Origin: Syncephalis plumigaleata
Lineage: Eukaryota; Zoopagomycota; Zoopagomycetes; Zoopagales; Piptocephalidaceae
Assembly: GCA_025201365.1 (NCBI GenBank)
Contig: JAIXMF010000008.1
Span: forward strand, 372,001-436,000
Length of the DNA: 64,000 nucleotides
Direction of reading: 5' to 3'
Part shown: positions 2,974 to 24,848 of the stretch, one piece after another
Position numbering within the stretch: position 1 is the stretch's first letter
How the letters are laid out: the number at the start of each line of letters is the position of its first letter
Translations under genes and position numbers: made by a program
Notes under the pieces: generated by a model
Seen by the model: only the letters and a program-made list of their open reading frames with translations
What the model was told of the DNA's origin: nothing
Database searches by the model: none

Positions 2974-5900
2974 TTGAATCGTAACTCTGTCGTTAATTCC
3001 TTCACTTCTACTTACCCTCTAGTTACAATACCTTGTACAATCAATAATGTAGCGGTGCGCGCGCTAATCGATTGTGGCGCTACTAATAATTTTATTGACC
3101 CCCTCGTAATGCAACGCTCTCTCACTTCTTATACATCATACGATTCCAAAGGTCCTAAGGTACGGTTAGGAGACGGATCAGTTCGCTCGGTCGCTGGATA
3201 TGCATCTAACATCACAGTCGAAATTAAAGATACTATTTTAAAACTAGACTTTGAAGTAATGACGTTAGGACATTATGATGTAATATTCGGTATGCCGTGG
3301 CTTACGAAATACGACCCTGATATCGATTGGAAAAATGGTACGTTGCGCTGTTTCCGTCAAGGCTTGGCCACACTCGACACTCTGCCAGCCACGCTAGACG
3401 TGAAATTACTATCGTCACACGCTATACTACCTTCACGGAATTCAAATCAAGCGGCAGGATACGATCTATACGCAGCAGAAGACGTCGCGATACCACCTGG
3501 TAAATCTAGGACAATACCCACCAACCTAGCGTTGAGACCACCAAGTGGAACATACGTAAGAATCGCACCGCGTTCTGGATTAGCAGTGAAACATTCCATT
3601 GACGTACTAGCGGGAGTGATAGACCCAGATTACCGTGGCGAAGTTAAAGGCGTGTTAATTAATCATGGTGAAGAGGAAATCCACATCAAGAAAGGTGAAC
3701 GCTTTGCCCAAGCCATATGTGAAGAACACAAGACACCAGTGATACAACAAGTGGAGGAACTCGACGAAACACAACGCGGCACTGCAGGTTTCGGCTCAAC
3801 CGGCATGAGAAACAACAACACACCAATCATGTCAAGTGAAACAAGTGTGAAACAACATATCGAACTACGCACGATCGAAGGAGAGACATTTGACGTAGAG
3901 AATGAAACTACACTCCTGCTGTTTGTGACCGAAACTACGTCGTCACCACCATTAAGATCTAAAACAGCCGATCAACTCATGGGCGATCTAATAGAAGAAT
4001 ACGGAGATGTGTTTCCAGAAGACTTACCTGCAGGATTACCACCACCGCGTGCAGTCGATTTCGCCATTGATATTATACCAGGATCGACGCCTCCCTCACG
4101 ACCACCTTATCGATTGACACAAGATGAATTAGAGGAATTAAAGAAGCAACTAGACGACCTATTAGACAAAGGCTTTATACAACCAAGCGTCTCACCTTAC
4201 GGTGCACCAGTACTATTCGTCAAGAAGAAGGATGGATCCTCTCGTATGTGTGTCGATTACCGTATGTTGAATGACATCACGATCAAGAACAAGTACGCGT
4301 TACCATATATCGACGATCTGTTTAGACAGTTACACGGTGCTACTATATTCAGTAAGATCGATCTACGGTCAGGTTATCATCAAGTGAGAATCAAAGAGGA
4401 ACACGTCGAACGCACCGCTTTTCGCACTCGCTATGGCCACTATGAATTTCGCGTACTACCATTCGGTCTTACCAACGCACCGGCAACCTTTATGCGACTA
4501 ATGAACGATGTACTACGACCACTACTAGATAAATGCTGCGTCGTATTCCTAGACGACATACTCATCTACAGCAAATCTGAGGAAGAGCATCGACAACATG
4601 TACAACAAGTACTACAGTTACTACGCGATAACGCATTATACGCTAAACATAGCAAATGTACCTTCGGTGCGAAACAAGTGGAGTTTCTCGGTCACATAGT
4701 AAGCGGCGAAGGGATTCACATGTGTCACGACAAGCTAGCCGCCATTCGTAATTGGCCAATACCTAAGAAGATACAAGACGTGAGAAGCTTCCTAGGATTA
4801 ACGGGATATTACCGTCACTTTATATACAACTACTCCAAGATCGCACAGCCACTTACTAACCTCACCAAGTTGAATACACCTTTCGTAATGGAAGGCGCAC
4901 CAACAACGGCGTTCGAGGAACTGAAGAAGAGAATGATGGAAGCACCAGTATTAATGATACCCGATCCAAAGAAGCCTTTCATCGTTACAACCGACGCTTC
5001 AGATTTTGCTATCGGTGCAGTGCTCGAACAGGCCGATGGTAAGAAGGCACGACCGTGCGCATACCTGTCACGTACGTTAACCGCTGCTGAACGGAAATGG
5101 CCTGTATACGACAAGGAACTGTATGCCATTATGGAAGCTCTTCGTGTATGGGATATCTGGTTAAGAAGTATCAAATTCGACATATACACAGATCATCAAC
5201 CACTGCGCTATCTCCGTAAGCAAACTAGCCTTCCGAAGCGGCAATCGAACTACTTAGACGCGTTAGCTAGTTACGACTTTGACATACATTACAAACCTGG
5301 ACGCAAGAATGTAGTAGCAGATGCGTTATCACGGCAAACAATCGGAGAAGCTGAACTAGCCAATATATCATCGATAGTACCGGAAGGGAGATTATTAAGG
5401 AGCATTCGGGAAGGATATATACACGACACGTTCTTCAGTCAAGTCTTAAAAGCAATCACGGATGAAGAAGCGACACCAACAAGATCACACAAGTGGAAAC
5501 GACAATTTAGACGAGTAGCAGAAGACGGATTGATATATGAAATGAGGTCTGACATTCCACGTCTGTGTATACCAAAAGTTGACAACTTACGCGTCAACAT
5601 CATTCGAGAGAATCACGACGCACCAACAGCAGGACACTATGGAGTGGAACGCACGGTATCAAGTATCAAGCGATATTATTGGTGGCCTACGTTACGTTCG
5701 GATGTATTACGATATATATCATCATGCGATACCTGTCAACGTAACAAACCTCGCAACCAGTTACCAATAGGATTACTACAACCATTACAAGTACCTGAAC
5801 ATCGTTGGCAAGAGATTTCGATGGATTTGATCGTGAAATTACCAAAGACACCTCGTAATGTCGATGCTATCTTCGTAGTAGTAGACCGTTTAACGAAACG

Positions 5901-6948
5901 CGCTCATTTCATAGCTACACAGACTAGTGCTTCCGCTCGTGATTTAGCCCGTTTATTCATAGACAACATATTCAAACTACACGGTATACCGGAGCGCATT
6001 ATATCGGATCGTGATGCACGCTTTATGTCGAGATTTTGGAAATCAACATTCGAACTACTTGGTACGCAACTACGCCCGTCGTCAGCATATCACCCACAAA
6101 CGGACGGTCAAACGGAGCGCACGAATCGCACCCTAGAAACGATGATACGGCATTACGTTAACTTTACACAAGATGACTGGGATGAATGGCTGTCAATACT
6201 CGAATTTGCTTACAATAATGCGGAACAGGAATCAATACGAATGACTCCATTCTTTTGCGACACCGGAAGACACCCCAGACGTCCAGATGCACTTGCCCGA
6301 TCATTCGACATACGAGGAGCAACAGATGTAGCGGCAACCGAAGAATTCATAGGACGAATGCGTGCATTAGCGTTAGAAGCACAAACGGCGATATCAGATG
6401 CTCAAGCAAAGCAGAAGTATTACGCTGACCAACGTAGACGCCTCGAAGAATTCAAGGTTAATGATATGGTATGGCTATCGGCAGCAAACATCAACACCGC
6501 AGCCAGCAAAGAACAACCAACACGAAAGTTCAACGCACTCTACTATGGACCATTTAAGGTTATCAAGAAGATCTCCGCCGTCTCTTACGAACTTAAATTA
6601 CCTGATCATTGGCGTATCCACAACGTATTTCACATATCTCTATTAAAGAAGTACGTACCCGAACCTAGCGACATGCGAGGACGCGCGCCAAGTCGACCCG
6701 ATCCAATAATCGTCAACAATGAGGAAGAGTATGAGGTGGAAACAATATTGAAATCGCGAGGTACCGGCCGCAACCAGAAATTCCTAGTTAAATGGAAAGG
6801 ATGGGACTACGACGAAGCAACCTGGCTAACGCGCGACGACTTACGCAACGCCCCCGACATCCTACGACGATTCGAAAATAAAGAGTCGAGGTCGACTCGT
6901 TCTATAAGGGGGAAGGTGCAACAAGTAGACACACAAAACCGTATATAA
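2974..6948 (+). CDS. Pol polyprotein of the Ty3/Gypsy element, protease-dUTPase-RT-RNaseH-integrase-chromodomain
   Basis: A fossil polyprotein read as one open frame of 1,324 codons. Parts by approximate residue: aspartic protease near 33 ([11 protein letters not shown]); dUTPase 143-278 with all five family motifs; reverse transcriptase about 380-560 with the active site FLDD near 525; RNase H from about 668 (TTDASDF); integrase from about 870 with an HHCC zinc finger, then SDRDARF and [13 protein letters not shown]; chromodomain about 1250-1300 ([15 protein letters not shown]). The order protease-RT-RNase H-integrase is Ty3/Gypsy and the chromodomain marks a chromovirus. The dUTPase is the odd part: it is not standard in this lineage. 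Confidence 0.96.
6906..6916 (+). other. Polypurine tract of the Ty3/Gypsy element
   Basis: The eleven purines AAGGGGGAAGG abut the right LTR, as expected for the plus-strand primer of reverse transcription. Confidence 0.85.
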
Positions 6949-7149
6949 TCGCAGCGTAATAAGTATAAGCTAATAACCTCTCACGGCAATTAACTATTGC
7001 CAATTGCGGTTGCTACTATCATTACTACATTATAATTTTGTTCAAATATTTTATTATAAATAAAGAAAGCCTCCGCCATAACAGCGGGAAGGGCATCATT
7101 CATACTCTAATCCTTATTGTCTAAGTAGCAGTAGCTTTCACTTGTTACA
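6917..7149 (+). repeat. Right LTR of the Ty3/Gypsy element
   Basis: A 233-bp copy identical by eye to 2022-2254, starting TGCAACAAGT and ending ACTTGTTACA, followed directly by the second CAGGA of the target duplication. Confidence 0.95.
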
Positions 7150-7155
7150 CAGGAG

Positions 7156-7953
7156 ATGATGGCGATGTGGCAGCAAATGCAAGAAGCTATGCAGCAGTTC
7201 AAACAGATGCAAGAAACTCTGCAGGTTCAACTCCCGACCAGGCAGAAGGACACCTGGATTCCGGACGAAAACTTTGTTAACCACGTCAGTTCATGGTCAG
7301 CAAGGCTGGATAACTTTAGCTTATCTGAGAAAGACAAGAAGGCAATAGTCGATGCCTACGCTCCAATAGAAGGTATTGACTATACGCCAGTCAGTAGCTA
7401 TGAATCGAGCTCAAAACTTAACAAGTATCAGAAGGCATACGACAGCCGATTCAAGCAAATAGCATATTTATTAACAGGCGTTGTACGCCCGCTAGATGTT
7501 ATCCTACAACAAGCAATCCTACAAGCAGACCAGGAAGCTGATCGCCAGTTTGTAGTAGCTCTAGACGATATTAGATCGTTGCTGTTAAACACGATTCACA
7601 CTGTGAAATCGTTTAGAATGGATATGGTCCTCAAGTCAATGGACAGTGACTTCACACTCATTCAGAAAGAAGAGCAACCAAAGGAAGACCTTGCAATTAT
7701 CCAACAAGCTTTCATTGAGCAAAGCAACCAAAAGAAGGCCATACTGGAACACAAAAAAGCCCAGCAGTTTTTTCGAGCGGACCCGCCACGAAACGCTGGC
7801 GGGCAGGATCAATCCAATTGGCACAACAGGAACTCTTACCAGAAGCGCCCATTCAACCAAGCCAACAACAACAGAAGAGGAGGCAGAGTCAAGCCCCAAT
7901 TCAACAGAGGCAACCACCACCACAACAACAACAACAACAACAACCAACAGTAG
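7156..7953 (+). CDS. Gag-like frame of the DIRS-like element (part right of the insertion)
   Basis: A Gln-rich frame with no zinc knuckle. It begins with a Met/Gln-rich helix (MWQQMQEAMQQFKQMQ), continues through a helical middle, and ends in a basic Asn/His/Gln-rich tail. Its position ahead of and overlapping the reverse transcriptase frame is that of DIRS ORF1, a structural protein. It is interrupted at its left end by the LTR element. Confidence 0.72.
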   Translation: MMAMWQQMQEAMQQFKQMQETLQVQLPTRQKDTWIPDENFVNHVSSWSARLDNFSLSEKDKKAIVDAYAPIEGIDYTPVSSYESSSKLNKYQKAYDSRFKQIAYLLTGVVRPLDVILQQAILQADQEADRQFVVALDDIRSLLLNTIHTVKSFRMDMVLKSMDSDFTLIQKEEQPKEDLAIIQQAFIEQSNQKKAILEHKKAQQFFRADPPRNAGGQDQSNWHNRNSYQKRPFNQANNNRRGGRVKPQFNRGNHHHNNNNNNNQQ

Positions 7954-9854
7954 GAGGCAGATTCCAGCGCTTCCATCTAGCCTGGGCTCGATTGACAGAC
8001 AGCAAGTGGGTACATGCCGTCGTCAAAGAAGGTTTCCGGATACATTTCAGCAAGTGGCCACCAATCTCAAACAAAGTGCGACCGACGATCCCGCTCAACC
8101 AGGAACAGCGCGTATTACTGAGGCAAGAGATCAACAGTCTATTGGCCAAACGAGCAATAGAGCCTGCCACGAATACGCCAGGTTACATGAGTCCCATGTT
8201 TGTCATCCCGAAGTGGAACGGAGGCTATCGACCAGTGTTCAATCTGAAGGCACTGAATCAGCACGTTATATCCCCTCACTTCAAGATGGAGACAATCCAA
8301 CAGGTCACCCAGCTAGTAAGGAAAAACGACTACCTCACGTCCATAGACATTACCGACGCCTTCCTACACATTTTGGTACATCGCAGCTCAAGAAAGTACC
8401 TCCGTTTCAATTGGGAAGGAGAAACATTCCAATTTCGCACCACACCCTTCGGCCTGTCAGTAGTCCCGTGGGTTTTTACACGTTTAACAAAGCCCGTATT
8501 AGCATGGGCAAGGTCAATAGGCATTCGAATTTCAGCATACCTAGACGATTGGATCATCATCGCCAGCTCAAAGCAGGAATCGAAATGTCACACAAACACA
8601 ATAATGGCCAAACTAGCAGAACTAGGTTGGCTGTGGAATCCCAAGAAGTCACAGCTCACTCTAACGCAGTCTCTAGTTCACCTAGGCTTCAAGATAGAAA
8701 CGAAGACGATGACCATCAAGCTTCCCACCAAGAAGATCCGCGACATACGCAAATCGATCAAAGCAGTGCTCAACAGCAATACGACAACACCTCGAATGAT
8801 CCACAGTCTCACAATGAGAATCAAGGCAGCGACGATCGCAATATTTCCTGTGAACTTGTACACCCAAGCATTGATGTTCTTCAAGAATTCCCATGTGAAG
8901 AACAACAAGAACTGGGACAGCAAACAGACGCTACCAGCAGATTGCAAGCGAGAACTGAGATGGTGGTCCACCAACCTATCCAAGTGGAACGGCAGATCAC
9001 TAATAACACGTCCACCAACATCATCAATCTATGTGGATGCCAGCGACAAGGGATGGGGTGGAGTTTACAAGAACAACATGATACAAGGTCTATGGTCACA
9101 CGAAGAAGCGAAGCAATCAATCAATTGGAGAGAGCTGAAAGCAATCGAATTGATGATCAAATCATTACCGCAACTATCGAATACGACGATTCTGATACGC
9201 ACAGACAACACGACGGCGAAGTCATACATCAACAAGCAGGGAGGAACGAGATCTCGTCAACTCAGCTCACTAGCAACGCAGATATGGGAGATGTGTCTCA
9301 AGAGGAACATTCAGATTCGAGCCAAACACATTCCAGGCTCTCAGAATACCGAAGCAGACTACGCATCGCGCAAGTTCTACCTCAAGAACTTATGGCAAAT
9401 ACATCCACGCACATTTGCACAGATACAACGCAGGTACGGTCAACACGACGTAGATCTATTCGCCGATCGAACGTCTCATCTACTACCAACGTATGTAGCG
9501 TGGAAGCCAGACCCTCACGCGATAGCCACAGATGCACTATCAATCAGCTGGAGACAATTCAGCCATCCTTACCTGAATCCGCCGTGGAACTTGATATCCA
9601 AATGTGTGAACAAGATACAACAGGAGAAGATAGCACAAGCAACGATAGTGACGCCATTCTGGCCGTCAGCAATGTGGTTCCCCATACTGAGCAACTTAGC
9701 CACAGCTCCCCCAATAATACTCGACCCACAACACCACGCGCAAACTACCTCCCCTTCCGCCAGTTGGCCATGGACAAATCACAAGTGGAGAATATCCGTG
9801 TGGAGTGTCTCAAGCGAAAATATGAGGAGCCAGGATATTCGGACAAGGCAGTGA
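7818..9854 (+). CDS. Reverse transcriptase / RNase H / methyltransferase-like frame of the DIRS-like element
   Basis: A fossil frame overlapping the Gag-like frame. The reverse transcriptase shows FNLKALNQHV, the first catalytic block SIDITDAFLHI, TPFGLSVVPWVFTRL and the active site YLDDW. RNase H follows (SIYVDASDKGWGG, then RTDNTTAKSYINKQ). After it comes a block DVDLFADRTSH ... NPPWNLISKCV ... TPFWPSAMWFP, the methyltransferase-like domain known downstream of RNase H in DIRS elements, with an NPPW catalytic-type motif. The combination separates DIRS from LTR elements and LINEs. Confidence 0.9.
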   Translation: MAQQELLPEAPIQPSQQQQKRRQSQAPIQQRQPPPQQQQQQQPTVGGRFQRFHLAWARLTDSKWVHAVVKEGFRIHFSKWPPISNKVRPTIPLNQEQRVLLRQEINSLLAKRAIEPATNTPGYMSPMFVIPKWNGGYRPVFNLKALNQHVISPHFKMETIQQVTQLVRKNDYLTSIDITDAFLHILVHRSSRKYLRFNWEGETFQFRTTPFGLSVVPWVFTRLTKPVLAWARSIGIRISAYLDDWIIIASSKQESKCHTNTIMAKLAELGWLWNPKKSQLTLTQSLVHLGFKIETKTMTIKLPTKKIRDIRKSIKAVLNSNTTTPRMIHSLTMRIKAATIAIFPVNLYTQALMFFKNSHVKNNKNWDSKQTLPADCKRELRWWSTNLSKWNGRSLITRPPTSSIYVDASDKGWGGVYKNNMIQGLWSHEEAKQSINWRELKAIELMIKSLPQLSNTTILIRTDNTTAKSYINKQGGTRSRQLSSLATQIWEMCLKRNIQIRAKHIPGSQNTEADYASRKFYLKNLWQIHPRTFAQIQRRYGQHDVDLFADRTSHLLPTYVAWKPDPHAIATDALSISWRQFSHPYLNPPWNLISKCVNKIQQEKIAQATIVTPFWPSAMWFPILSNLATAPPIILDPQHHAQTTSPSASWPWTNHKWRISVWSVSSENMRSQDIRTRQ

Positions 9855-10762
9855 AAGTTCTAGCAGAAGTAAAGCACAAAACGTACATCAGAGGTCAACA
9901 ATTATTCATTTCATGGGCAATCCAAAGGGATATCAATATCAGCAAATTTACATCAGCAGATTTGGTTAATTTCATAGCAGATGCACATGAAGCAGGCTAC
10001 AGCAAAGCAACTCTACAAACTTATAGAGCAGCAATTGTCAAGCTACACACACGCCCTGAATCAATCAAAACCAATCCTGACATACAAGCACTGATAAGGA
10101 ACTTCAAATACATCCCACGTCCACTGAATAAATCAAAAGTTGATATTACGCCCACATTACGTCACTTATACGCCATACCGACGTCACCAGCAGCTGATTT
10201 TGATCAACTACGACGAAAAACGGCTTACTTACTGGCAATGTCAGCACTATTGAGACCCTCTGATATCAATAGAATTTGCAGATCACAATCAAAAACAACT
10301 GACGAAGGCCTACAGCTATACATCATTAATCCGAAAGAAAAGCGAAAGAAGGAGTCGATTACTAAACCAATCATTATTCCACCTAACAGCAACATCCCAC
10401 AGCTATGCCCCGTACAAGCATACGAAACACTATTACAACACCCACAATATATCGTCAGAAACAACTACCTATTCACTAAGTTAGGCAAGCCTCACAATAA
10501 AGTCGCCGATAACACCATTGCTTCTTGGTTGTCAAAGTTGACAGCGCTCTCAACAGACATTCGCCCAACTCCTCGTGTCAGATCAATCGCTTCAGATTTA
10601 GCACTTGAAAGAGGTGTACCACACGATGACATCATTACACTAGGCAATTGGGCAGATGCACGCACATTCGAAAAACATTACAGACGCCAGCGTTTATTAA
10701 GAAGTAATGTTACAGAAAAAGTGTTAGATTTAAGTCCAGTACACTTTGCGTCAGCTGAATAA
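9770..10762 (+). CDS. Tyrosine recombinase of the DIRS-like element
   Basis: A phage-integrase-type recombinase that replaces a DDE integrase in this order and inserts circular DNA without target duplication. An N-terminal SAM-like DNA-binding part (KTYIRGQQLFISWAI ... YSKATLQTYRAAIVKL) precedes the catalytic domain. There LLRPSDI carries the first Arg, RVRSIASDLALERG the second, and FEKHYRRQR the nucleophile Tyr. The frame is open further upstream in overlap with the reverse transcriptase, so the true start is uncertain. Confidence 0.88.
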   Translation: MDKSQVENIRVECLKRKYEEPGYSDKAVKVLAEVKHKTYIRGQQLFISWAIQRDINISKFTSADLVNFIADAHEAGYSKATLQTYRAAIVKLHTRPESIKTNPDIQALIRNFKYIPRPLNKSKVDITPTLRHLYAIPTSPAADFDQLRRKTAYLLAMSALLRPSDINRICRSQSKTTDEGLQLYIINPKEKRKKESITKPIIIPPNSNIPQLCPVQAYETLLQHPQYIVRNNYLFTKLGKPHNKVADNTIASWLSKLTALSTDIRPTPRVRSIASDLALERGVPHDDIITLGNWADARTFEKHYRRQRLLRSNVTEKVLDLSPVHFASAE

Positions 10763-19274: not shown

Positions 19275-19281
19275 TATAAAT
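19275..19281 (+). promoter_or_regulatory. TATA box of the micro-exon peptide gene
   Basis: TATAAAT lies 130 bp before the start codon, followed by a CT-rich leader (CTCTACTCTACTCTCT at about 19331-19352). This arrangement, a strict TATA box and a pyrimidine-rich leader, is typical of highly or conditionally expressed fungal genes. The same GCTATAAAT core stands before the UDP-glycosyltransferase gene at 23051. Confidence 0.65.
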
Positions 19282-19410: not shown

Positions 19411-20664
19411 ATGAAGTTCTCTACCATCATCGCTATTGCCGTCGCCGTTGTCGCTGTCGCCAGTCTGGTCGCCGTTGAAGCTAGTCCTGCCCTGGAACGT
19501 CGTAGTATGTCTGGCCGTGATCCTATCAATTGATGTACTAATCGTAGTCTATTGTTTCATTGCCCACCGATGATTAGCGATAGCTCGTAAGTTCATGTAT
19601 ATTAAATGGTTATTTTGACATGCTAATCACATTACAATGTTTATTCCACATATTAATTTGTTAGCTGAATGGGGTAAGCTAGTTTATTGACCATGACAAG
19701 TGCTATGCTAATAGTAATATAAATTAAAATCATGTGTGATTACCATTTCAAGGACCTGTAAGTTATCATTCTGACTATGATGTACGAATACTAACTACGA
19801 CATGGTTCGCCATTCTTGTATGCTTGTGGATAACAGCCTGTAAGCTAGTATCCTGATTGTAATGCACAATGTATTAAGAACTATGATATGATACATGATC
19901 CACGTATGTTTGTATACTAGCCTGTAAGTTATCATTCTGATTGTAATGAATGGCGTACTAACTCTGCTATGACACATGATCCACATACATTTTGTATGAC
20001 AGCCTGTAAGTTATCATTCCAGTTATAAACTATGCTGTGCTAATTACGATTTGGCACACGATCCACGTATGCTTGTGCATAACAGATGGTAAGTAATCAG
20101 AATGATTGCAATGAATGATATGCTAATCGCGCTATGGCATACGACCCATTTATGTTTGCGTATGATAGATGGTAAGTTAATATTTCTGGCTGCAAGGAAC
20201 CGGGCACTGATCGCAATATGGCACACAATCTATACATTATTGTATGATAGTGGGTAAGTTATCATTCTGACTACAATGAATGGGTACTAACTATTACATG
20301 GCACACGATTCACATACGCTCCTGTATAATAGAACGTAAGTTACCATTCTAATTGTAATGATCGAGATACTAATTACGATATATCACACAAACCATGGAT
20401 GTTCCTGTATAATAGAAAGTAAGTAATCATTCTGACTACAATGAATGAGATACTAATCACAACGTGGCACACGATCCATCTGCCTGTTTACGCTAGCCTG
20501 TACGTTACCATTCTAATTGTAATGAACGGGTACTAACTATTACATGGCACACGATCCACGTATTTTCTTGTATAACAGCTTGTAAGTAATCATCCCAATC
20601 GTCATCTACGCTACACTAATCACAATACAATCTATATTAATTGATTGAATAGCCACGAGATTAA
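19411..20664 (+). CDS. Secreted 50-residue peptide precursor encoded by one-codon micro-exons
   Basis: I recognise no family. Exon 1 (19411-19504) encodes a signal peptide (MKFSTIIAIAVAVVAVASLV, then AVEA) and SPALERR, a short propeptide ending in an Arg-Arg Kex2-type site. Then follow exons of 3, 9, 5 and ten times 3 nt: 19584-19586, 19665-19673, 19753-19757, 19837-19839, 19921-19923, 20003-20005, 20086-20088, 20169-20171, 20251-20253, 20333-20335, 20416-20418, 20497-20499 and 20579-20581. The last coding exon is 20653-20664 with a TAA stop. Each lies between an AG acceptor and a GTAAGT, GTAAGC or GTACGT donor. Introns are 71-81 nt, mostly 79-80, and most carry a TACTAAC or CTAAT branch point. 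Phases close exactly on the stop (153 nt). The predicted mature peptide is TPEWGPPPPMMWNKPLPRD. Splicing is inferred, not observed; leaving out exon 20653-20667 would open a longer tail to 20898. Confidence 0.68.
19505..20652 (+). repeat. Tandem array of 14 duplicated introns, period about 82 bp
   Basis: From 19758 to 20578 the units share, in order, GTAAGTTATCATTCTGA, ATTGTAATGAATG, TACTAACTA, ATGGCACACGATCCACGTAT and TGTATAACAG, with substitutions and 1-2 base indels. Units before and after this core keep the splice signals but are more diverged. Splice sites and branch point are better kept than much of the filler, as expected if each unit works as an intron. A plain satellite would show no such bias. 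The 3 nt between units differ (CCT, ATG, TGG, AAC, AAA, CTT), so the codon is the variable part. Confidence 0.85.
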
Positions 20665-20916
20665 GCAGTAAGTAATAATCCACATGCTAATCATACTCAT
20701 ACTAATCCATTATGATTACAGGACAAGACAAGGGCATCATCAAGTAGATATTATAGGTATTCAAGTCAAGAATGGATTGGTGCAAGTCCCTCATTTAGTG
20801 TCCATGCCATTCAAGTCATTATTCCTTGGACCAAGAAATATATCTACAAGTCCCTTTGGTCTATTCATCCATGGTCCTATTACATAAATATCAACTAATG
20901 GCTGGTTCATTGATTG

Positions 20917-20922
20917 AATAAA
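20917..20922 (+). terminator. Likely polyadenylation signal of the micro-exon gene
   Basis: AATAAA follows the last predicted splice acceptor (AG at 20720-20721) by about 195 bp and precedes the TATGTAATG stretch. It would close a primary transcript of about 1.6 kb, most of it intron. Confidence 0.5.
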
Positions 20923-20940
20923 TATGTAATGCTATAGGGC

Positions 20941-23162: not shown

Positions 23163-24848
23163 ATGTTTTCTAAAAGGATATTGGCCATCCTTCTACTTGG
23201 TACGACAATATCTCAAGGTTCATTAGGTGCCGCTAGAAAGCAAGCTCAAGGCATACTCGACAAACGCGTCAATGATGGTCAACCATTAAATGTTTTCATT
23301 AGTACCACGATGGGTACATGGTCGCATGCCTCGCCGCAACTCGTATTGTCCGATGTATTGGTGGAGCGCGGCCATAAAGTTGCGTTTGCCAGTTACAATA
23401 CCTCACTAGATGCCTGGCTTAAGGACTACCCACACGTACAACCAGTGGATATGGGCACTAACCCGATGCTTAAACACATTGCCATGAGAAGTGCCCATAG
23501 AGTGGTATCCGCCGATCAAGCTGTAGATTTCATGGAGATGGAACGACTTCTTCATAACATCTTTGGACATAGTTATCGCGATACTTACACATTCTATCGT
23601 AATCACTTCACGAATCATCCGGTAGATGTGGTCATTTGCGATTTCTTCAATCCTTCCTGCCATGATGCCGCCTATGAGTTTGGCTTACCCTTTGTGGTCA
23701 CCATGCACATGCTAGGCTTACTCAGTCAGGAGCGTCCGCCTTACATCACAAATTCATTCGCTGGATTGCCGCCCACCCATGAGACTGCCAGTTTTTTCGA
23801 ACGTTTCTACGATGCTATTGTTCTGCCATTGCGACAACGCCTTTTCTTTAGTGATACTTATAGTGTGCGTCAAGCTGCCATGAAAGAATTAGGCATCGAG
23901 TCATATGGTCCATTCGGTGAACGTTGGCGACACGGTCTCGTGTTGGTTAATACGTTTTTTGGCCTCGAGTTGCCACAACCGGTGCCGCCTAACACGCACT
24001 TGATTGGCCCGACTATTCCGCACAAGTTCAAGCCGCTACCCGATGATCTACGGGAATTCTTGGATACACACGAGCGTACCGTATACGTTGGATTCGGTAC
24101 GGCAGCCATCTTATCTGGCGAGCGTATCTCGACCATCTTGAGCGCGTTACTCGTCGCACATCGTGACGGTCTGCTCGACGGTGTCATTTGGGGTCTAATG
24201 CAGTCGGCCACTAACGAGAAATCACAACTGCACACGGTTACCGTGGATGGTGTCACGCATAACATTGCTGACATGCGGTCCGGCAAGCATCCGGTGGTGC
24301 GTCTAATGGATAAAGCGCCGCAACGTGCCATCCTAGGCCATTCATCGACCAAGCTATTCATCTCACATTGCGGCGTCAGCTCTCTTTTCGAGACCATGCA
24401 CGCGGGTGTACCAATTATCGGTCTGCCCGCTTTCGGCGATCAGGAGAATAACGCGTTCAAGATGACCGAGATGGGTGCCGCTCTTTGGCTACCAAAGACA
24501 AAGGTAACTCAGGATACGCTTTACGAGAAACTCTCACTATTACTCTCACCAATGTCGGATGTGGCAAAGACGGCTCGTGACACGATGACACGTCTTCAGA
24601 AGATGTTCCACATCGCCAATCGTGATCATACGAAAGCGGCCGATTTTATCGAAATAGCTGCAATCCCTGGTGCAATGAAATCCTATCAAAGTGCCGACAT
24701 GCGTATGCCATGGTGGAAGGCACAAAACTACGATTTGTACGCATTCCTCGTTGCAGTCATTGGCATTGCCACTTTTATTCTTATTTTTATTATTCAATAC
24801 GTTACAACATTGCTACCATTTGGAAAGCGTAAAGAAAAGCAAGCTTAA
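23163..24848 (+). CDS. Membrane-anchored UDP-glycosyltransferase (GT1 / UGT family)
   Basis: Transfers a sugar from a UDP-sugar to a small lipophilic acceptor, probably on the lumenal side of the ER. It is a single exon of 561 codons from MFSKRILAILLLGTT. Residues 1-22 are a signal peptide. The acceptor half starts VFISTTMGTWSHASPQLVLSD. The donor-binding signature near 401-440 reads HCGVSSLFETMHAGVPIIGLPAFGDQENNAF (split here: HCGVSSLFE, then GVPIIGLP, then DQENNA), with Cys in place of the usual second Gly of HGG. A transmembrane helix at about 524-548 (LYAFLVAVIGIATFILIFII) and a basic tail KRKEKQA, like a dilysine retrieval signal, follow. Signal peptide plus C-terminal anchor is the animal UGT layout; fungal sterol UGTs are soluble or peripheral and lack it. 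The acceptor is unknown. Confidence 0.9.
   Translation: MFSKRILAILLLGTTISQGSLGAARKQAQGILDKRVNDGQPLNVFISTTMGTWSHASPQLVLSDVLVERGHKVAFASYNTSLDAWLKDYPHVQPVDMGTNPMLKHIAMRSAHRVVSADQAVDFMEMERLLHNIFGHSYRDTYTFYRNHFTNHPVDVVICDFFNPSCHDAAYEFGLPFVVTMHMLGLLSQERPPYITNSFAGLPPTHETASFFERFYDAIVLPLRQRLFFSDTYSVRQAAMKELGIESYGPFGERWRHGLVLVNTFFGLELPQPVPPNTHLIGPTIPHKFKPLPDDLREFLDTHERTVYVGFGTAAILSGERISTILSALLVAHRDGLLDGVIWGLMQSATNEKSQLHTVTVDGVTHNIADMRSGKHPVVRLMDKAPQRAILGHSSTKLFISHCGVSSLFETMHAGVPIIGLPAFGDQENNAFKMTEMGAALWLPKTKVTQDTLYEKLSLLLSPMSDVAKTARDTMTRLQKMFHIANRDHTKAADFIEIAAIPGAMKSYQSADMRMPWWKAQNYDLYAFLVAVIGIATFILIFIIQYVTTLLPFGKRKEKQA

Follow-up and report, generated by a model that had tools for sequence, protein, structure and literature searches.

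The window considered here is the whole stretch of 64,000 nt analysed from contig JAIXMF010000008.1 of Syncephalis plumigaleata, and coordinates are given as positions within it. A gene at 19411-20667 begins with an exon encoding a signal peptide that ends in Arg-Arg, continues as a run of tiny exons and finishes with a last coding exon carrying an in-frame TAA (Table 1). Its structure was decoded by scoring intronic splice-site positions and branch-point words only, the reading frame not being used, with matrices trained on 649 sites from which those of the window gene and of its closest relatives, L045-L047, had been left out. The frame-blind path consisted of coding exons of 94, 3, 9, 5, ten times 3 and 15 nt, and translated to MKFSTIIAIAVAVVAVASLVAVEASPALERRTPEWGPPPPMMWNKPLPRD, that is, 50 codons followed by a stop in exon 15 of 16. 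As the decoder returned this same path, the structure proposed in the initial annotation, with its eleven named 3-nt exons, exons of 9 and 5 nt and a TAA closing the frame after 50 codons, holds to the base. The intron lengths of 71-81 nt given there are true of all 14 introns separating coding exons, and the TATA box placed at 19275 is indeed present.

Eleven of the 14 internal exons of the gene are 3 nt long, and 10 of the 19 residues of the mature peptide are each encoded by one whole exon. The 3-nt exon ahead of the 5-nt exon lies in phase 1, and the 5-nt exon restores phase 0. Nine open reading frames of 40 aa or more surround the array, counting both strands, and none makes a better gene than the spliced model. 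A 99% identical copy of 19411-20721, L047, is present on the small contig C379 and may represent the other haplotype; 8 of 1055 intron sites distinguish the two, whilst the compared sites of exon 1, splice signals and micro-exons are all identical.

Table 1. Features of the tiny-exon gene in the S. plumigaleata window.
Feature	Position	Strand	Evidence
TATA box (TATAAA)	19275..19280	+	sequence
Exon 1: signal peptide and Arg-Arg (..ALERR plus one base), ends in phase 1	19411..19504	+	decoder
Exon 2, 3 nt (CTC), phase 1	19584..19586	+	decoder, paralogue comparison
Exon 3, 9 nt (CTGAATGGG)	19665..19673	+	decoder; start of joined exons 1-3 aligns with uninterrupted L062/L063
Exon 4, 5 nt (GACCT), back to phase 0	19753..19757	+	decoder
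One-codon exon CCT (Pro)	19837..19839	+	decoder
One-codon exon CCT (Pro)	19921..19923	+	decoder
One-codon exon CCT (Pro)	20003..20005	+	decoder
One-codon exon ATG (Met)	20086..20088	+	decoder
One-codon exon ATG (Met)	20169..20171	+	decoder
One-codon exon TGG (Trp)	20251..20253	+	decoder
One-codon exon AAC (Asn)	20333..20335	+	decoder
One-codon exon AAA (Lys)	20416..20418	+	decoder
One-codon exon CCT (Pro)	20497..20499	+	decoder
One-codon exon CTT (Leu)	20579..20581	+	decoder
Last coding exon CCACGAGATTAAGCA, 15 nt, TAA at 20662-20664	20653..20667	+	decoder, paralogue comparison
Last intron (3' UTR), 54 nt	20668..20721	+	spliced join TAAGCA/GACAAGACAAGG equals uninterrupted TAAGCA-AACAAGACAAGG of L063
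3' UTR exon; end arbitrary, set for comparison	20722..20930	+	aligned with L062, L063 and L065

Four compact paralogues (L062, L063, L064 and L065) encode a similar signal peptide within one open frame. The signal peptide of L062 and L063 runs uninterrupted into RRAPQEHDP.., whilst spliced L042 reads RRAPQEPP.. across exons of 3, 9 and 5 nt; at the position of RRAPQ.., a reading found in several relatives, the window gene has RRTPE... The last junction is also common to the array gene and the paralogues, with TAAGCA-AACAAGACAAGGACATCATC in L063 against TAAGCA-GACAAGACAAGGGCATCATC where 20667 is joined to 20722 in the window. The decoder itself preferred a last acceptor at 20756; this was dropped, as the intronless paralogues favour 20721, the acceptor originally annotated. 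The upstream region and 3' UTR of L062, L063 and L065 align with those of the window gene, and the rest of the mature region of L062 and L063 aligns poorly with the window peptide. L062 and L063 resemble natural cDNAs, or else an uninterrupted ancestor.

The assembly (32.6 Mb, 383 contigs) contains 83 places that match the start of intron 1 with three mismatches or fewer, and none that match a reversed control. The pattern GTAAGT-N58-84-AG-Nk-GTAAGT was found 1931 times for k=3 (112 for the reversed-pattern control), 29 times for k=4 (213), 123 times for k=2 (50) and 109 times for k=6 (42). Duplication of units must explain some of the excess at k=3, and tests of coding potential therefore outweigh the pattern count. 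With the array as a DNA query at least 100 matches were obtained (best 40 of 206 candidates scored), and with an uninterrupted family member as a protein query at least 144 (150 of 167 candidates scored), the latter comprising both arrays and compact genes.

The loci analysed comprised 39 relatives from the array DNA search, eight on contig C1, picked among the first 100 of the 1931 k=3 places, and six more. Frame-blind decoding of the 39 relatives gave 833 internal exons, 716 of them exactly 3 nt long, and 525 of the three-nt exons of these loci lie in phase 0. The model of L041, which with L042 forms a pair resembling that of the window gene and L047, contains 42 exons of 3 nt and 48 introns, and its score was equal with and without a frame constraint. 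Exon 1 reads as hydrophobic across the 39 loci, and Arg-Arg comes after it in all but L010, L012 and L037; in L016 and L034 the signal region of exon 1 is shifted in frame. Of the 51 decoded loci, 46 have a TATA-like word 80-200 nt ahead of the ATG, compared with 14% of shuffles. The original observation is confirmed and reaches further than first described: the gene belongs to a large family with hypervariable codons.

That the triplets between the introns are codons is indicated by four tests: stop counts, the degeneracy of third bases, residue patterns taken jointly and the intronless paralogues. Among 712 three-nt exons only one stop codon was found, against 52.7 (sd 7.0) expected for triplets drawn from the same introns, and cysteine codons numbered 63 against 29.0 expected from same-intron triplets. 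In the 24 loci with their first stop in the penultimate exon, stops numbered 0 of 550 codons in frame, whereas one shifted frame had 6 of 528 and the other 54 of 528, with the last coding exon left out of the count; these 24 loci were chosen by frame, and the 712-triplet count is therefore the fairer number. Third bases were purines in 14 of 213 triplets belonging to four-fold boxes (pyrimidines in 199), as opposed to 111 of 312 split-box triplets, or 80 of 263 once those whose AG is ambiguous were excluded. Intron triplets reverse this trend, with purine fractions of 0.52 (four-fold) and 0.32 (split boxes), so that the third base of the exons avoids purine mainly where the amino acid permits. 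Presumably the preference for a pyrimidine adjoining the donor is a constraint of splicing seen through the genetic code.

With frame given no part in the decoding, the penultimate exon held the first stop in only 24 of the 39 loci, L016 among them. The remaining 15 do not close there: L012 and L015 close one exon earlier, inside a 6-nt exon, L020 seems to be interrupted and L034 has the shifted exon 1 already mentioned, whilst the failure of the others to close was attributed, mostly without proof, to decoder errors or decay. Twelve further loci were decoded. Closure fell in the penultimate or final exon for L053, L054 and L060, whereas exon 1 already contains stops in L048 and L050 and an early stop ends L051, L055 and L058; L056, L057 and L059 are open to the end of the analysed stretch, and the decoded reading of L052 contained no stop. 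A Cys-CysCys-Cys framework with differing loops was present in the decoded models of eight of 51 loci (L009, L012, L013, L018, L021, L026, L028 and L029, with L013 and L028 encoding one peptide) and absent from those of the other 43; the peptide of L022 is rich in histidine and that of L025 is charged. A Pfam scan of 12 spliced peptides gave nothing convincing, the best match (E 0.041) lying below its curated cut-off, and one mature peptide searched against PDB sequences gave a single unconvincing match (E 0.39).

Public gene models provide a further comparison. With twelve spliced peptides as queries, a search relying on shared 5-residue words matched 26 proteins, of which 18 are named as S. 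plumigaleata, and long stretches of the predicted spliced peptides were found within P0015 and P0021. The whole of P0015 (BDF22DRAFT_685685) can be threaded on L041, using 41 introns and 39 three-nt exons, all 41 of its donors and all 41 of its acceptors being among those of the 48 introns of the decoded model. P0021 could be threaded on L059 over 69 of 82 residues with 27 three-nt exons, and 28 of 30 donors and 29 of 30 acceptors match the decoded model. P0016 threads fully on L009 and has seven 3-nt exons before it departs from the array; P0024 threads fully on L019 with no 3-nt exons, reading into intron 1. Nine public models, these four included, have their first 20 residues in common with an analysed locus; the other five thread over 21-30 residues only, and their own loci probably lie outside the compared set, which makes these five uninformative. 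Seven proteins from short contigs (P0033-P0037, P0039 and P0040; sources jgi and ena) have a diverged signal peptide, and since six of the seven continue into an intron-1-like translation, the family seems to have relatives beyond the present assembly.

P0015 leaves out six exons of the decoded L041 model (one each of 9, 6 and 2 nt and three of 3 nt), and this bears on the possibility that the exons are real and joined in many combinations, each gene yielding a mixture of peptides through the skipping of one-codon exons, which are frame-neutral, since the loss of a 3- or 6-nt exon leaves the frame intact. The exons missing from P0015 mostly have weaker splice sites, however, and P0015 may therefore be an ab initio model rather than one derived from RNA, in which case the program would have dropped them too; random skipping would moreover spoil the four-cysteine frameworks. 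We regard such mixtures as possible, though not as the likelier reading.

The comparison of related units concerns both the pace of change and the condition of the arrays. Over 191 reciprocal-best unit pairs, codons differed at 10.1% per nt and flanking introns at 3.7%, a 2.7 times difference. Two or three nt had changed in 17 of the 191 codons, compared with 79 of the 6062 intron triplets from the same pairs, a ratio of about 7 (Fisher p 3e-9, a value that is too small, since duplication links the unit pairs, and likewise the triplets, to one another). The changed codons comprised 32 non-synonymous and 3 synonymous cases; single-nt changes considered alone gave no non-synonymous excess (3 of 18 synonymous, 21% expected). 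L009 and L017 have a unit in common whose flanks agree throughout the alignment (at least 112 nt), yet its codon is CTG in one locus and CGT in the second. By default, the fast codon change is read as strong diversifying selection. Close pairs also differ by whole units, with 18 and 16 introns in L030 and L032, and 17 and 15 in L046 and L045. Flanks within 20 nt were 6.5% divergent around multi-nt-changed codons and 2.6% around unchanged ones, and those further away 5.8% and 3.0%; short conversion tracts around changed codons are consequently not favoured, distant flanks being nearly as divergent as near ones.

Amongst 12 chosen pairs, seven had micro-exons more divergent than introns and five had the reverse, and splice sites were better conserved than intron interiors in all 12, a comparison in which the decoder favours good sites. 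This conservation weighs against the view that the arrays are mostly relics with little expression, copies in decay whose genes were formerly compact and then took up introner-like introns. In favour of that view are the uninterrupted paralogues and the damaged signal exons or misplaced stops at several loci. Against it stand also the TATA word kept in 46 of 51 loci and the purifying case of L013 and L028, between which 1975 intron sites show 90 differences and 89 micro-exon sites show none, and we consider it improbable. Improbable, too, is that the array forms a single long intron (19505-20652 or 19505-20721) of intron-like tandem repeats with untranslated triplets: Tandem Repeats Finder gives 81-83-nt repeats in parts of the array, duplication by itself would repeat AG-NNN-GTAAGT and the best Pfam match is poor, but the near absence of stops, third bases that obey the genetic code, closure in the penultimate exon at 24 of 39 loci, the cysteine frameworks of eight loci and a public model with 39 such exons all contradict it, and exon 1 joined to 20653 would leave the TAA at 20662 out of frame.

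The original proposal of a secreted-peptide gene in which each triplet forms a one-codon exon is accordingly strongly supported by the frame-blind decoding, the near absence of stops and third bases that follow degeneracy, with further support from the cysteine frameworks of some relatives, the splice sites shared with a public model and the resemblance of intronless paralogues to spliced copies. The window gene very probably codes for a small secreted peptide, the mature part of which is mostly contained in 3-nt exons. Exon 1 would supply the signal peptide for secretion and an Arg-Arg processing site, cleaved by what we take to be a Kex2-like protease. The 3-nt exons are flanked by introns of approximately 80 nt that have strong GTAAGT donors and branch points. 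Splicing would have to proceed by intron definition, most simply with introns removed 5' to 3' during transcription, each removal adding one codon to the growing upstream exon. The suggestion in the initial annotation of one-after-another splicing, with a 19-residue mature peptide released at Arg-Arg, is plausible.

Codon-plus-intron units appear to be gained and lost whole, with codons swapped faster than introns, so that an array could lengthen, shorten or change its peptide by single residues with the frame kept. Since array exons are whole codons, skipping one would lose a residue and not the frame, and arrays would thus tolerate splicing error and allow combinatorial products. More tentatively, and we think this rather unlikely, the one-codon exons may serve as a device for peptide diversification, in which single residues are added, dropped and exchanged as units whose inclusion may be combinatorial, and a focal process would replace single codons outright. 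We read the large family as one of diversified secreted effectors, toxins or antimicrobials. Syncephalis is described as mycoparasitic (PMC10386755), and this life style, together with the signal peptide, the dibasic site, the cysteine frameworks and the Pro/Arg-, His- and Lys-rich variants, suggests that the peptides are most likely released whilst parasitising other fungi or competing with microbes.

The arrays are read here as a new, extreme form of micro-exon gene, the nearest kinds being the micro-exon genes (MEGs) of schistosomes and the bicycle genes of aphids. Passages of PMC10526429 and PMC4350168 describe schistosome MEGs as encoding secreted, fast-evolving proteins of the parasite interface, with a conserved signal peptide and many tiny exons of lengths that are mostly multiples of three. 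These exons are mostly of 15 bp, with a minimum of 6 bp in the results text and a range of 3-81 in the abstract, and the introns are of 0.1-5 kb (PMC10526429). The S. plumigaleata family is similar in having its signal peptide in the first exon and a mature region of mostly very small exons divisible by three; it is set apart from the MEG descriptions by exons that are mostly of one codon and by repetitive introns of approximately 80 nt. On exon and intron size it does not fit the schistosome MEG families, and the protein search by shared 5-residue words, which could miss remote homology, matched predominantly proteins named as S. plumigaleata.

Aphid bicycle genes, as described in PMC9168663, encode putative effectors and have many micro-exons (approximately 17 exons on average, with almost all internal exons in phase 2), rapid divergence and a structure more conserved than sequence. 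The S. plumigaleata genes differ in having 3-nt exons that are mostly in phase 0. Bicycle proteins carry cysteine-tyrosine motifs. Conotoxins and snake-venom phospholipases likewise combine a conserved signal region and introns with hypervariable mature coding sequence, in exons of ordinary size, unlike the one-codon exons of S. plumigaleata. Isolated exons of 1 or 3 nt are shown or reported to be used in Arabidopsis, Fusarium CYP621A, Drosophila homothorax and Dactylellina lipS (PMC4674806, PMC12940212, PMC7392893, PMC5639578); these number one or two per ordinary gene, whereas the S. plumigaleata arrays contain runs of tens. Open-access literature searches on runs of one-codon exons, fungal micro-exons and Syncephalis introns returned no such report among the matches listed.

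Should transcripts confirm it, this would be the most extreme exon fragmentation known to us, with 42 three-nt exons in L041 and some 1900 pattern matches in the genome. The arrays make it testable how the spliceosome handles exons too short for both splice-site complexes, whether the order of intron removal is forced, and which splice signals suffice without exon sequence. They would also offer a route for evolving secreted peptides residue by residue, and suggest that current annotation would miss much of the secreted arsenal of S. plumigaleata.

Tiny exons were also noted in other settings. L053:1885-2510 has a different signal peptide and unrelated, non-repetitive introns, with an apparent 6-nt exon and four 3-nt exons ending in ..SSSCTRRRCYDD and a stop; its low decoder score (10) makes it weak evidence, though frame closure supports it, and if correct it would make tiny exons a habit of this genome, beyond one duplicated repeat. 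L061 (C58:10200-12900, - strand) is an array mixing 3-nt and 6-nt exons, those listed being rich in Pro and Arg codons, and the pattern list contains a very similar array at C223:612325-614641. L049 (C1:1411500-1419500, - strand) has many tiny exons with codons that are rare in the main family. Elsewhere in the window, long open reading frames at 2974-10762 read by eye like retroelement polyproteins, and a UDP-glycosyltransferase-like open reading frame at 23163-24845 has several paralogues in the genome.
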